From positions 1 to 20,653 of IMG/VR virus record IMGVR_UViG_3300011116_000034: 20,653 nucleotides of DNA. One strand, 5' to 3'. This document shows, one piece after another, positions 1 through 18,384 of the stretch. Source of the stretch: a virus. The notes below the pieces were generated by a model that was given only the letters and a program-made list of their open reading frames with translations, did no database searches and was not told the DNA's origin. Within the stretch, counting starts at the first letter, position 1. Every line of letters starts with the position of its first letter. The position numbers were made by a program, and so were the translations under genes.

Positions 1-235
1 GTGTTCTAGACTCATCAAAAAAGCGGCCCCCTTTGCGTAAATTGCATTGTTGGCACAGCAGCTGAAGATTATTAAGCGAATCATCTCCACCTAACTTGCG
101 TGGGACTATGTGATCGACATGGTTACCATCCATGCCACACATCTGGCACACTCCATCTCTTCTGATTACTATCTCTCGCAGCTTACGCCACTTAGTAGTT
201 GAACCATTAGACCTTAGTGCTGATCTCTTACTCAT
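1..235 (-). CDS. HNH endonuclease, unit A (partial, cut by left edge)
   Basis: The first 78 codons of an HNH nuclease are in the window; the 3' end lies beyond base 1. The sequence shows a CxxC pair at residues 30-33, the catalytic D-H-I-V-P block at 41-45, an asparagine-rich N-N-L step near 55-57 and a second CxxC at 61-64. Together these form the usual zinc-braced beta-beta-alpha metal fold. The start ATG overlaps the stop of the transglycosylase-like gene in ATGA. In phages of this layout a small HNH protein next to the large terminase helps genome cleavage during packaging (known for HK97-type systems); that role here is inferred. It is a diverged homologue of the complete HNH gene at 15215-15517, which overlaps terminase, so a terminase gene is expected just left of the window. 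Confidence 0.9.
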   Translation of the reverse strand, partial: MSKRSALRSNGSTTKWRKLREIVIRRDGVCQMCGMDGNHVDHIVPRKLGGDDSLNNLQLLCQQCNLRKGGRFFDESRT

Positions 236-666
236 TGCCAACCTTTAGTCTTTAGATGATGTAATGCCTTGCAGTAATTAGGCTCATCATACTCTGTCCA
301 TCCATAACGATGTGCTACATAATGCCAATACCACCACCATTGTTTAACTGTACTTGCATTCTTTAAGCTCTTAGATCGACCTTGATATAACCCAAAATGT
401 GATCCATTAACAGCTCTTGGATTCCATCTAGATTCTCTATAAACAATGCTGTTATGACAAGACTCTTGCTTATCAGTTAATTGATACTCTGCTAATTCTT
501 TAACGTATCGAATTGCTTGGTTTGACGCCTTAGCATCTAGGGGCATTGCCATAGATAGAGATATCCCAATAGCGATGGCTACCTTGCGGCCTCTCCCTAC
601 CGGGGCCGCCTTGAGCCCCTGATGGGCTCTAGCCCTGAGAGTACCATGAGTGTCAAATCTATTCAT
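232..666 (-). CDS. Small exported lysozyme/transglycosylase-like protein, unit A
   Basis: A 144-residue protein with a basic N-terminus (about residues 10-28), a hydrophobic segment at about 29-42 and an A-K-A-S-like cleavage context near 45-48, so it looks exported or membrane-anchored. The mature part has Y-R-E-S-R-W-N-P at 77-84, with E78 in the position of the catalytic glutamate of lytic transglycosylases, then N-G-S-H-F-G-L-Y-Q-G, and ends with a KTKGW motif typical of actinobacterial transglycosylase-like domains. It probably cuts peptidoglycan glycan strands, during entry or lysis; the substrate is inferred. An AGGAC ribosome site precedes the ATG. The 5' part of the gene is a GC-rich islet that can form hairpins. 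Unit B has a homologue at 15514-15918. Confidence 0.7.
   Translation of the reverse strand: MNRFDTHGTLRARAHQGLKAAPVGRGRKVAIAIGISLSMAMPLDAKASNQAIRYVKELAEYQLTDKQESCHNSIVYRESRWNPRAVNGSHFGLYQGRSKSLKNASTVKQWWWYWHYVAHRYGWTEYDEPNYCKALHHLKTKGWQ
602..635 (-). repeat. Two adjacent GC-rich hairpins, unit A
   Basis: Read directly, GGGGC at 602-606 pairs with GCCCC at 615-619 (8-base loop), and GGGC at 624-627 pairs with GCCC at 632-635 (4-base loop). Both lie inside the first codons of the transglycosylase-like gene, in a locally GC-rich patch unlike the AT-rich rest of the gene. The same gene in unit B carries different but equally placed hairpins. Candidate roles are a packaging or cos/pac-type site, an RNA regulatory element, or translational control; none is proven. 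Confidence 0.5.
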
Positions 667-693
667 AAAAGTCCTGTTCAGAGCGGTGTGTCG

Positions 694-15218: not shown

Positions 15219-15517
15219 TCGGAATCGTCCTGATAGTGGCTTATTGAGGCGTTTTTCGGGTAAAAAGAACCAAGGAGGGTCGTGGGTGGCTTAGGACTAT
15301 CAAAAAGCCTACCCCCTTTAGAATAATTACATCTTCTGCATAATACTTGCAGATTAGAATCCTGATCACTACCACCAAGCTTGCGAGGTATGATGTGGTC
15401 CACAGTATCACCTTCAAGTCCACACCTTTGGCATGTCCTTTGATCGCGCCTTAATATGCGCTCTCTTATCTTACGCCACTTAGAGCTTGATCCATTAGAT
15501 AATGCAGACTTCTTCAA
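15215..15517 (-). CDS. HNH endonuclease, unit B
   Basis: A complete 100-residue HNH protein: basic start (K-W-R-K-I-R-E-R-I-L-R-R-D), C29-x2-C32, D-H-I-I-P at 40-44, N55-L-Q-V-L-C, and C60-x2-C63 followed by K-G-G-R. It is a zinc-braced nuclease likely acting with the adjacent large terminase at the packaging cut, as shown for HK97 gp74-type proteins. It starts in an ATGA overlap with the transglycosylase-like gene and ends in a GTGA overlap with terL. It is the last gene of the unit B composition type; G+C rises on entering terL. The homologous start at 235 is 15,282 bases away. Confidence 0.92.
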   Translation of the reverse strand: MKKSALSNGSSSKWRKIRERILRRDQRTCQRCGLEGDTVDHIIPRKLGGSDQDSNLQVLCRRCNYSKGGRLFDSPKPPTTLLGSFYPKNASISHYQDDSE

Positions 15518-15918
15518 TGCCAGCCCTTATCCTTGAAGTGTTGCCATGCTATACACGGCTCACCATATCTATGACCTATATAGTCTAAGCCCCATTGTAC
15601 TTGCTCATAGCCATTAAGTGTGGATAAGTAGATCGATCTACCTTGTGGTATTCCATAGTGGCTACCATTCTTAGCATCTGGGTTCCATGCTGACTCTTTA
15701 CCATATAGAGCTGTTAAGCATTTATATTCTTTATAGTTATAATCTAGTGAGATAAGTGCATACTCTTTATAGCTTATGTATTGCACTGGTTTAGATCCAC
15801 CTGCATCAGGCATTATGCATAGAGCTATCCCAATAGCTACTAGCACCCCGCGACCTACCCGCCTCAGCGGGTCGCGGTGAGCCTTTGAGAGGCTCTGCTC
15901 CGATAGCGTACCGATCAT
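15514..15918 (-). CDS. Small exported lysozyme/transglycosylase-like protein, unit B
   Basis: A 134-residue protein. The start is placed at 15918 because GAGGTG lies six bases upstream; a longer frame from 16044 would run through the FmdB gene. Basic residues (H-R-D-P-L-R-R-V-G-R-G) precede a hydrophobic segment at about 25-36. The domain then has Y-G-K-E-S-A-W-N-P with E75 as the likely catalytic acid, N-G-S-H-Y-G-I-P-Q-G, and an A-W-Q-H-F-K-D-K-G-W-H end, all shared with the unit A homologue at 232-666. The middle of the gene is very AT-rich (14 G+C in 60 at 15721-15780), in contrast to its GC-rich hairpin region at the 5' end. Confidence 0.7.
   Translation of the reverse strand: MIGTLSEQSLSKAHRDPLRRVGRGVLVAIGIALCIMPDAGGSKPVQYISYKEYALISLDYNYKEYKCLTALYGKESAWNPDAKNGSHYGIPQGRSIYLSTLNGYEQVQWGLDYIGHRYGEPCIAWQHFKDKGWH
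15849..15895 (-). repeat. Two adjacent GC-rich hairpins, unit B
   Basis: CGCGA (15849-15853) pairs with TCGCG (15872-15876) and encloses CCCGC (15858-15862) paired with GCGGG (15867-15871), with a 4-base loop and a 4-base bulge. Next to it GAGCC (15879-15883) pairs with GGCTC (15891-15895). The region lies inside the 5' end of the transglycosylase-like gene, matching the hairpins of unit A in position but not in sequence. It forms a sharp GC islet in AT-rich surroundings. Confidence 0.6.
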
Positions 15919-15966
15919 GTCAAGCACCTCGCTTAATCTTGGGCGTGTCGTAACGATTATGTACCC

Positions 15967-15988
15967 TGTGGATAACTTCTGTGGATAA
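15967..15988. other. Tandem DnaA boxes, candidate replication origin, unit B
   Basis: TGTGGATAA occurs at 15967-15975 and again at 15980-15988, 13 bases apart. Each is the exact reverse complement of the DnaA box TTATCCACA. They lie in the 70-base gap between the FmdB-type gene and the transglycosylase-like gene, next to AT-rich sequence. Unit A has no such boxes in its corresponding 27-base gap. They may recruit host DnaA to start phage replication or regulate transcription. Confidence 0.6.
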
Positions 15989-16162
15989 CTATTTATCTGT
16001 TGAGTAGAAGCCTTTGCCCTTGAAGTGTGCTGGCGCAGCTGCAATTACTTTGACCATTGGCTCATTACAGTATGTGCATGGGATTATTGGTCGATCGTGC
16101 CATCCATGATAGATCTCTTGACTGAGATTGCATCGTGTGCATTTGTAATCGTAGGTTGGCAT
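15989..16162 (-). CDS. FmdB-type zinc ribbon protein, unit B
   Basis: A 57-residue protein starting M-P-T-Y-D-Y-K-C-x-x-C and carrying a second pair C-T-Y-C near 33-36, then F-K-G-K-G-F-Y-S-T-D-K. The start at 16162 is chosen over in-frame ATGs at 16171 and 16204 because AGGAG lies nine bases before it, the 16171 ATG abuts that site, and family members start MPTY. The nuclease gene ends about 79 bases inside it, a long overlap. Its stop codon lies one base from the second DnaA box. The unit A homologue is at 694-882. Confidence 0.8.
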   Translation of the reverse strand: MPTYDYKCTRCNLSQEIYHGWHDRPIIPCTYCNEPMVKVIAAAPAHFKGKGFYSTDK

Positions 16163-16563
16163 GTTAAACATCTCCTGATCATATATGACCCACATCCAGA
16201 GCACCGGTCTATGTCTGCCTCTGTGGGTTCGCTAGTAATGTGACAATACTTTAATTGAAGTAATGGTAAGAGATCACCTAATCTAATGATGCAGGCATAG
16301 TCCTCTGCATTCTCTCCTTGATTATTTAGGCGCAAGACTGCGAAGCCCAATTCCCCCGAAAGAGCTGTACGCGCCTTGTATTGTTTTATTACTTCCAATG
16401 GGTTAAAGCCTTTTCTGGCCTTGACCTCACAGTCGAAGGGAACATTGACAATATCCTTACCATTACCTCTTCCGACCGTTGCGCCACTCCACACAGTCGA
16501 TAGGTACTGTGCGACTACTCGCTCCGTTCGGAAACCTCTTGTGCGCCTAAAGTTGTTAGCCAT
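16084..16563 (-). CDS. PD-(D/E)XK nuclease with zinc ribbon, unit B
   Basis: A 159-residue homologue of the unit A nuclease. G-R-G-N-G-K-D-I gives D37, and D-C-E-V-K-A-R gives E46 and K48. The C-terminal ribbon has C121-x2-C124 and C132-x2-C135. After the ribbon it has a tail of about 24 residues absent from unit A; that tail is encoded in the overlap with the FmdB gene in another frame, so it probably arose by loss of the original stop. Likely role as for unit A: cutting branched or recombining DNA. Confidence 0.7.
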   Translation of the reverse strand: MANNFRRTRGFRTERVVAQYLSTVWSGATVGRGNGKDIVNVPFDCEVKARKGFNPLEVIKQYKARTALSGELGFAVLRLNNQGENAEDYACIIRLGDLLPLLQLKYCHITSEPTEADIDRCSGCGSYMIRRCLTCQPTITNAHDAISVKRSIMDGTIDQ

Positions 16564-17688: not shown

Positions 17689-17846
17689 TCTTTCCAAAAC
17701 TCCTGACGGTTTATTGCTCTGCCTCTATGGTATCCATCTCTAACGCCCTTTTGATAGGCATGCTTCTGGACATCGATCAATGTGATGATAAAACCAATAA
17801 ATACGCCAAACAGGCATATGATCAGCAGCTTATCGGTGTTGCTCAT
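17685..17846 (-). CDS. Small one-span membrane protein, unit B
   Basis: A 53-residue protein with M-S-N-T-D-K, a hydrophobic span at about residues 7-24 (L-L-I-I-C-L-F-G-V-F-I-G-F-I-I-T-L-I), then a basic tail with Y-Q-K-G-V-R-D-G-Y-H-R-G-R. Start and stop are both in ATGA overlaps, with the Prim-Pol gene before and the DUF6378-like gene after. Although almost no residues of the span match the unit A protein at 2483-2638, both tails share a Y-x-K-G-x-K/R pattern, so they are probably true homologues. Function unknown. Confidence 0.65.
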   Translation of the reverse strand: MSNTDKLLIICLFGVFIGFIITLIDVQKHAYQKGVRDGYHRGRAINRQEFWKE

Positions 17847-18328
17847 TTTTGCACCATTTCCAAGATTGCCTCTGGTAGTGCAATTGGCTCAATATCCAAT
17901 ACTACTTGATAAATTGCTCCGTTTGGATGGATTGATGGTGCAGCTGCGACGTAACCTTTGTACTTAACATCGATGCCATCACCAATTGATCCTTTCAGCG
18001 ATAAACCTTGATCGATCTTGTAGTAATAGTGAAAACCGTCTCCGGTTTTTACCGTATAAGTTTCGCCCATTTCATCAAAGTATTTCCCACCATTTCGGAA
18101 ATCCACATCCAGGACGACTAAACCAGATGTCACACATGCAATTCCAATGTTTGCCTTTGGATCGACATCAAACCAAAAATCAATCAACTTTGTATCTGTA
18201 GTTGCTCCAAGATAAGCACCCTTGACTAGGTCAAAGTGTGGGTCTTTCATCTTTGGCTTTAGTGGCAATACAGCCCAGCCTTTTGCAGCATAATCTAAAG
18301 CTGCCTGTCGTGAATCGATAGTAATCAT
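17843..18328 (-). CDS. Stand-alone Prim-Pol (bifunctional primase-polymerase N-terminal) domain protein
   Basis: A 161-residue protein with the Prim-Pol signature: G-W-A-V-L-P-L-K-P-K-x-K-D-P (17-30), A-N-I-G-I (59-63), V-V-L-D-V-D-F with D74 and D76 as metal-binding aspartates, T-G-D-G-F-H-Y-Y-Y (95-103), and A-P-S-I-H-P-N-G-A-I-Y (130-140). It would make RNA/DNA primers or extend short DNA. Larger phage homologues carry a C-terminal helicase; here only the Prim-Pol domain is present. The start at 18328 follows GGGAG; an in-frame ATG at 18376 lacks that site and would run through a hairpin. Unit A has no counterpart between phosphoesterase and membrane gene. Confidence 0.85.
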   Translation of the reverse strand: MITIDSRQAALDYAAKGWAVLPLKPKMKDPHFDLVKGAYLGATTDTKLIDFWFDVDPKANIGIACVTSGLVVLDVDFRNGGKYFDEMGETYTVKTGDGFHYYYKIDQGLSLKGSIGDGIDVKYKGYVAAAPSIHPNGAIYQVVLDIEPIALPEAILEMVQK

Positions 18329-18370
18329 GTTGCTCCCTTTCCAGCCATATCTTGGCTGTTGGGATGAGTG

Positions 18371-18384
18371 TGACATAAATGTCA
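18371..18384. promoter_or_regulatory. Dyad TGACAT-aa-ATGTCA upstream of Prim-Pol
   Basis: A 14-base dyad with six-base arms and a two-base centre lies in the 95-base gap between phosphoesterase and Prim-Pol. Closer to the gene, CAGCC and GGCTG can form a hairpin just before the GGGAG ribosome site. The dyad could be an operator; no clear -35/-10 pair is seen beside it. Confidence 0.4.

Follow-up and report, generated by a model that had tools for sequence, protein, structure and literature searches.

A helically phased pair of DnaA boxes 5' of the transglycosylase gene of tiny freshwater phages, a possible exchangeable site for a host regulator

The window analysed here, a virus record of 20,653 bp, contains two similar regions, units A and B, in each of which an FmdB-type gene is followed by a short gap and a leader. 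In unit B two exact copies of the DnaA box TTATCCACA lie 13 bp apart on the minus strand, as an earlier note on this DNA had reported, and the pair is located directly 3' of the stop codon of the FmdB-like gene and upstream of a transglycosylase gene (Table 1). By a hand estimate from base composition, a sequence of 20.6 kb should contain about 0.2 exact boxes by chance, and the expected number of pairs on one strand no more than 30 bp apart is about 5e-5. Chance therefore does not account for the pair, and the note's judgement on this point was sound. A third exact box lies within the transglycosylase open reading frame; it is probably fortuitous, because most complete relatives have the pair alone. 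This third box, which lies in coding sequence and is not generally conserved, is the one observation that would favor chance or a coding artefact as the source of the pair as well, but that explanation has a negligible probability and is ruled out by conservation, since the 23-mer that spans the pair is nearly invariant in more than 100 viral contigs whose flanking sequences vary.

Table 1. Positions of the boxes and neighboring features in the 20,653-bp window
Feature	Position	Strand	Basis or remark
DnaA box 1, TTATCCACA, exact	15980..15988	(-)	sequence match
DnaA box 2, TTATCCACA, exact, 13 bp from box 1	15967..15975	(-)	sequence match
23-mer TTATCCACAGAAGTTATCCACAG spanning the box pair	15966..15988	(-)	
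Gene for FmdB-like zinc-ribbon protein, 5' of the pair	15989..16204	(-)	
GACACGCC motif between pair and core, recurring in relatives	15942..15949	(-)	read from sequence
Core TTGAC-N8-TANNNT (TTGACATGATCGGTACGCT), 52 nt from start of box 2	15905..15923	(-)	
Three-way-junction element of unit B, covarying, just after core	15821..15903	(-)	
Transglycosylase gene, PHROG 12661, putative ATG at 15918	15514..15918	(-)	
Third exact DnaA box, within transglycosylase ORF	15619..15627	(-)	
Cut cos end of phage A (...CTAGAACAC)	1..12	(-)	
Joined cos, where the right arm of phage B meets the left arm of phage A	15270..15295	(-)	
Prim-Pol gene of unit B	17843..18376	(-)	not linked to boxes
Unit A, CTCTGAACAGGACTTTT block common to host oriC, in box-less slot	667..683	(-)	
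Unit A, core TTGAC-N8-TANNNT	638..656	(-)	
Unit A, three-way-junction element	557..637	(-)	

The relatives of the window include many contigs of 15-17 kb, and one 27-kb contig has two box pairs 15,362 bp apart, so the genome unit is about 15.4 kb long. The right ends of many relatives lie ∼700-860 nt past FmdB and often have the same sequence (...AGAACAC or ...AAGACAC, with ...GGCTAC in another class), and the left ends of several start with TTGGTTC. Judging from these end sequences, units A and B are right arms that come from different cos phages of ∼15 kb and meet at a cos site. The cut end at position 1 and the joined site within the window thus mean that the record is made up of the right arm of phage B followed by a complete genome of phage A, with its structural genes and unit A, in a mixed concatemer or an assembly join. 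The statement in the earlier note that only unit B has boxes is correct for the contig, since an exact search found no DnaA box in unit A and the pair is missing from the unit A gap (667-693). The two units come, however, from two phages and not from one. In this group, a contig of some 20-30 kb can be two phages joined at cos, which calls for caution; L096, L125, L143, L158 and G021 are other contigs above 20 kb with parts of two genome units. An HNH open reading frame spans the cos site in the window.

The carriers of the pair are tiny freshwater bacterial viruses and number in the hundreds. Gaps that follow an FmdB gene of the unit-B type have the direct pair in 79 of 91 cases, nearly always as TTATCCACAGAAGTTATCCACAG, and those that follow the unit-A type in none of 85; among these 85, a CRP/GlxR-like GTGA-N6-TCAC palindrome is found in 17 (in L088-L157), an inverted DnaA pair in 4 and neither site in 63 (all redundant counts). 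The full TGTGA-N6-TCACA sites, where found, number one per record. The GAAG linker between the boxes is present in 78 of 83 non-redundant viral leaders. Unrelated upstream genes also precede the pair, and most such contigs keep the same kind of leader 3' of it. In L090, L092, L117 and L130 an extra gene, methyltransferase-like by eye in some, lies between FmdB and the transglycosylase gene. The earlier note had proposed a search for conserved boxes in the FmdB-transglycosylase gap, and had taken absence from all close relatives as grounds to abandon its reading; because the boxes are conserved and of the host type (below), those grounds do not exist. A literature search on phage DnaA boxes found none, and a DNA search of the leader against a phage collection gave no match.

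The position of the pair relative to the core is also constrained. Of 113 distinct leaders, 112 place the TTGAC of the core at 52-53, 62-63 or 71-75 nt from where box 2 starts, and 10.5 bp is the period at which the circular statistic is highest (R=0.899; none of 20,000 uniform draws was as high). The spacing classes are in part inherited through shared ancestry, so this test overstates the independence of the leaders; after thinning to 19-31 leaders R is still 0.75-0.82. Many leaders have the start codon between pair and core, and the reading frame therefore cannot explain the steps of 10-11 nt. From center to TTGAC the distance is 64 nt for inverted pairs and 51-54 nt for CRP-like sites. Such a constrained position in the 5' control region of a gene is what is expected of a DnaA-regulated promoter. 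The core itself is a putative promoter; its TTGAC and TANNNT begin only 13 nt apart, whereas a standard promoter has a spacer of 16-18 nt, and a promoter scan of the window region gave no more matches than chance. In some other phages the pair lies upstream of sequences closer to the standard form. In the larger contig L382 it precedes a CRP-like palindrome and then a textbook promoter (TTGCAT-N17-TATACT), in the larger contig L395 a CRP-like sequence lies between the pair and a textbook promoter (TTGACT-N17-TAGAAT), and L438 and L448 have TTGACA-N19-TATACT; the pair-to-TTGAC distances in these phages, 47-48 and about 60 nt, are outside the three main classes.

Just 3' of the core, both units contain a three-way-junction element of 20 pairs, 94% paired, with a covariation of 0.378 versus 0.122 in shuffles; it is retained despite a different reading frame between the clades. 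The element has no Rfam match, no known RNA family was found in the window or the leaders (a single miRNA match below threshold was disregarded), and the element was absent from 297 bacterial genomes under stricter filters and with no positive control.

The likely hosts are small low-GC actinobacteria, as suggested by small Actinomycetes genomes (1.0-1.5 Mb, most with a locus GC of 0.41-0.48) that have TTATCCACA boxes at their dnaA-linked oriC; these genomes presumably belong to the Nanopelagicales. CRP-type HTH proteins are encoded in every one of 19 putative host genomes tested, and the 13-bp-spaced pair is absent from 24 putative host genomes. Most of the putative-host dnaA loci have at oriC a block close to CTGASCWGSVVTTTT, and many of the genomes have a further copy of such a block, which in the examples read lies directly 5' of a secreted transglycosylase gene beside phoH. 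Within a genome the variants of the block at oriC and at the transglycosylase promoter tend to agree (L523-L546, L550-L559). The phage transglycosylase is homologous to that of the host (38% identical over 88 aa, E 1e-15), and the block of unit-A and most pair-bearing leaders matches both host oriC and the region upstream of the host transglycosylase gene. A weight matrix built from the host oriC copies alone and scanned over the phage genomes has its best match in the phage leader in most genomes of both clades, though not in CRP-type leaders, nor in unit B, whose own leader does not have the block. Mimicry of oriC by the whole region was considered and rejected, as the block also precedes the host transglycosylase gene and a DnaA-trio is absent.

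The earlier note had suggested that unit B replicates by a DnaA-initiated theta-type route, with the Prim-Pol gene as a partner of the boxes, and had named a skew minimum away from about 15.97 kb as grounds against this. Neither the route nor the Prim-Pol link is supported. After detrending, the skew minimum does lie elsewhere, in most cases 9.7-12.4 kb from terL, and the boxes are near the GC-skew maximum; box-less genomes show a similar skew, so skew is weak evidence on the origin and was set aside. Prim-Pol is found in only 10 other loci and in none of the 80 closest box-bearing loci; the two occur together in L165 and L518, Prim-Pol without boxes in L166-L168, and boxes without Prim-Pol in L052, and with this independent occurrence a linkage was rejected.

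A more general role in replication, in which the pair would be the DnaA/DnaB-loading site of a phage origin that recruits the host replisome, perhaps with the downstream three-way junction, is less likely than control of the gene, although it deserves some weight. The complete box-bearing genome L052 (15,505 bp) encodes no recognised initiator, primase, helicase or polymerase, as judged by reading its open reading frames, which leaves room for a DnaA origin. The pair, with at least two host-type boxes as an origin would need, is often the only exact box set of a genome, additional box-like sites are present in L404, L374, L426 and relatives, and many phages share the sequence block of host oriC in this region. 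In 6 of 14 box-bearing genomes the 30-mer richest in AT of the whole genome is found 231-260 nt downstream, but this patch ∼200-260 nt from the pair is transglycosylase coding sequence and weaker versions of it are present in box-less genomes. Further against an origin, no DnaA-trio lies within 1 kb of the boxes in 16 genomes, though many putative host oriCs have one, the skew minimum is away from the boxes, and the site is not kept in all close relatives of the same gene layout, since sister phages have no boxes or have CRP-like sites instead. The presence of DnaA boxes in a phage genome does not by itself make an origin.

The pair is helix-phased 5' of a cell-wall gene, and relatives have the site of another regulator in its place, which argues for a gene switch rather than a start of copying. 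We give about an even chance to the reading, drawn from sequence comparison, that the pair is an exchangeable site through which host DnaA controls the transglycosylase gene. Two host DnaA molecules would bind the pair in the control region and regulate transcription of the gene, kept to a single helical face with respect to the fixed core just downstream; both the binding and the direction of control are putative, as is a function of the transglycosylase in lysis. The short spacing of the core, the chance-level promoter scan of the window region and the lack of the host block in unit B's own leader speak against this reading. The slot would be modular, with a DnaA pair in one clade, while sister phages have an inverted DnaA pair there, a CRP/GlxR-like site or no site at all, so that the gene could be tied to the replication status or the nutrient status of the host. 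If so, widespread minimal phages wire a cell-wall gene to the cell-cycle or nutrient regulators of the host by a swappable site, and phage sensing of host state could be tested by simple box mutations. It is doubtful, though conceivable, that host DnaA serves as a counter of genome copies, with multiplying phage genomes titrating DnaA until the shift in occupancy switches the transglycosylase gene and times lysis, and with CRP reading nutrition at the same slot in the sister phages.

Titration could also be the whole purpose of the pair. As a decoy, each new phage genome would add two high-affinity sites that draw off host DnaA and halt host initiation, as datA or box-bearing plasmids do in E. 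coli (PMC5835720). The perfect pair with its conserved linker fits this, and the same 23-mer is present in many Streptomyces and Actinoplanes chromosomes (L248-L367), in one copy per genome in the two checked; in Streptomyces griseofuscus (L253) it is flanked by pheA and serS and is not beside dnaA. A decoy, however, requires no fixed position, helical phase or exchange with CRP-like sites, and all three are observed, so we consider it unlikely. A still smaller share of the probability falls to other explanations.

DnaA-regulated promoters and DnaA-box titration loci are known at dnaA, mioC and datA of E. coli (reviewed in PMC5835720), and the proposed role resembles these non-origin boxes that control transcription or sequester DnaA; here, in contrast, the boxes are phage-borne, lie helix-phased 5' of a cell-wall enzyme gene and are swapped for CRP-like sites in sister phages. 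Compared with bacterial oriCs that have a DnaA-trio, such as those of the putative hosts, the phage region has the same TTATCCACA boxes and, in many phages of the group, the short common block, but only two boxes, no trio nearby and a location in the leader of a gene for a cell-wall enzyme. The promoter pR of phage λ is stimulated by host DnaA, and its DnaA sites are weak and tied to replication; the present case would be similar in that a phage promoter is influenced by host DnaA, but it has exact boxes and these lie upstream of a transglycosylase gene. In Mycobacterium, the MtrA regulon places one regulator on both oriC and cell-wall hydrolase promoters (PMC6265350), and, going by the block common to oriC and the cell-wall gene, a single binder might likewise act at both places here. 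Among described phages, those of Arthrobacter cluster AN (Decurrovirus; PMC5513430, KU160655) differ in the right arm, in a portal protein that is only ∼34% identical, and in lacking the close protein identity and shared early genes that membership would imply, and Decurrovirus phage Maggie has no DnaA boxes. They are nevertheless alike in being ∼15.5-kb siphophages with the terminase near the left end, an HNH gene at the right end and no annotated replication genes.
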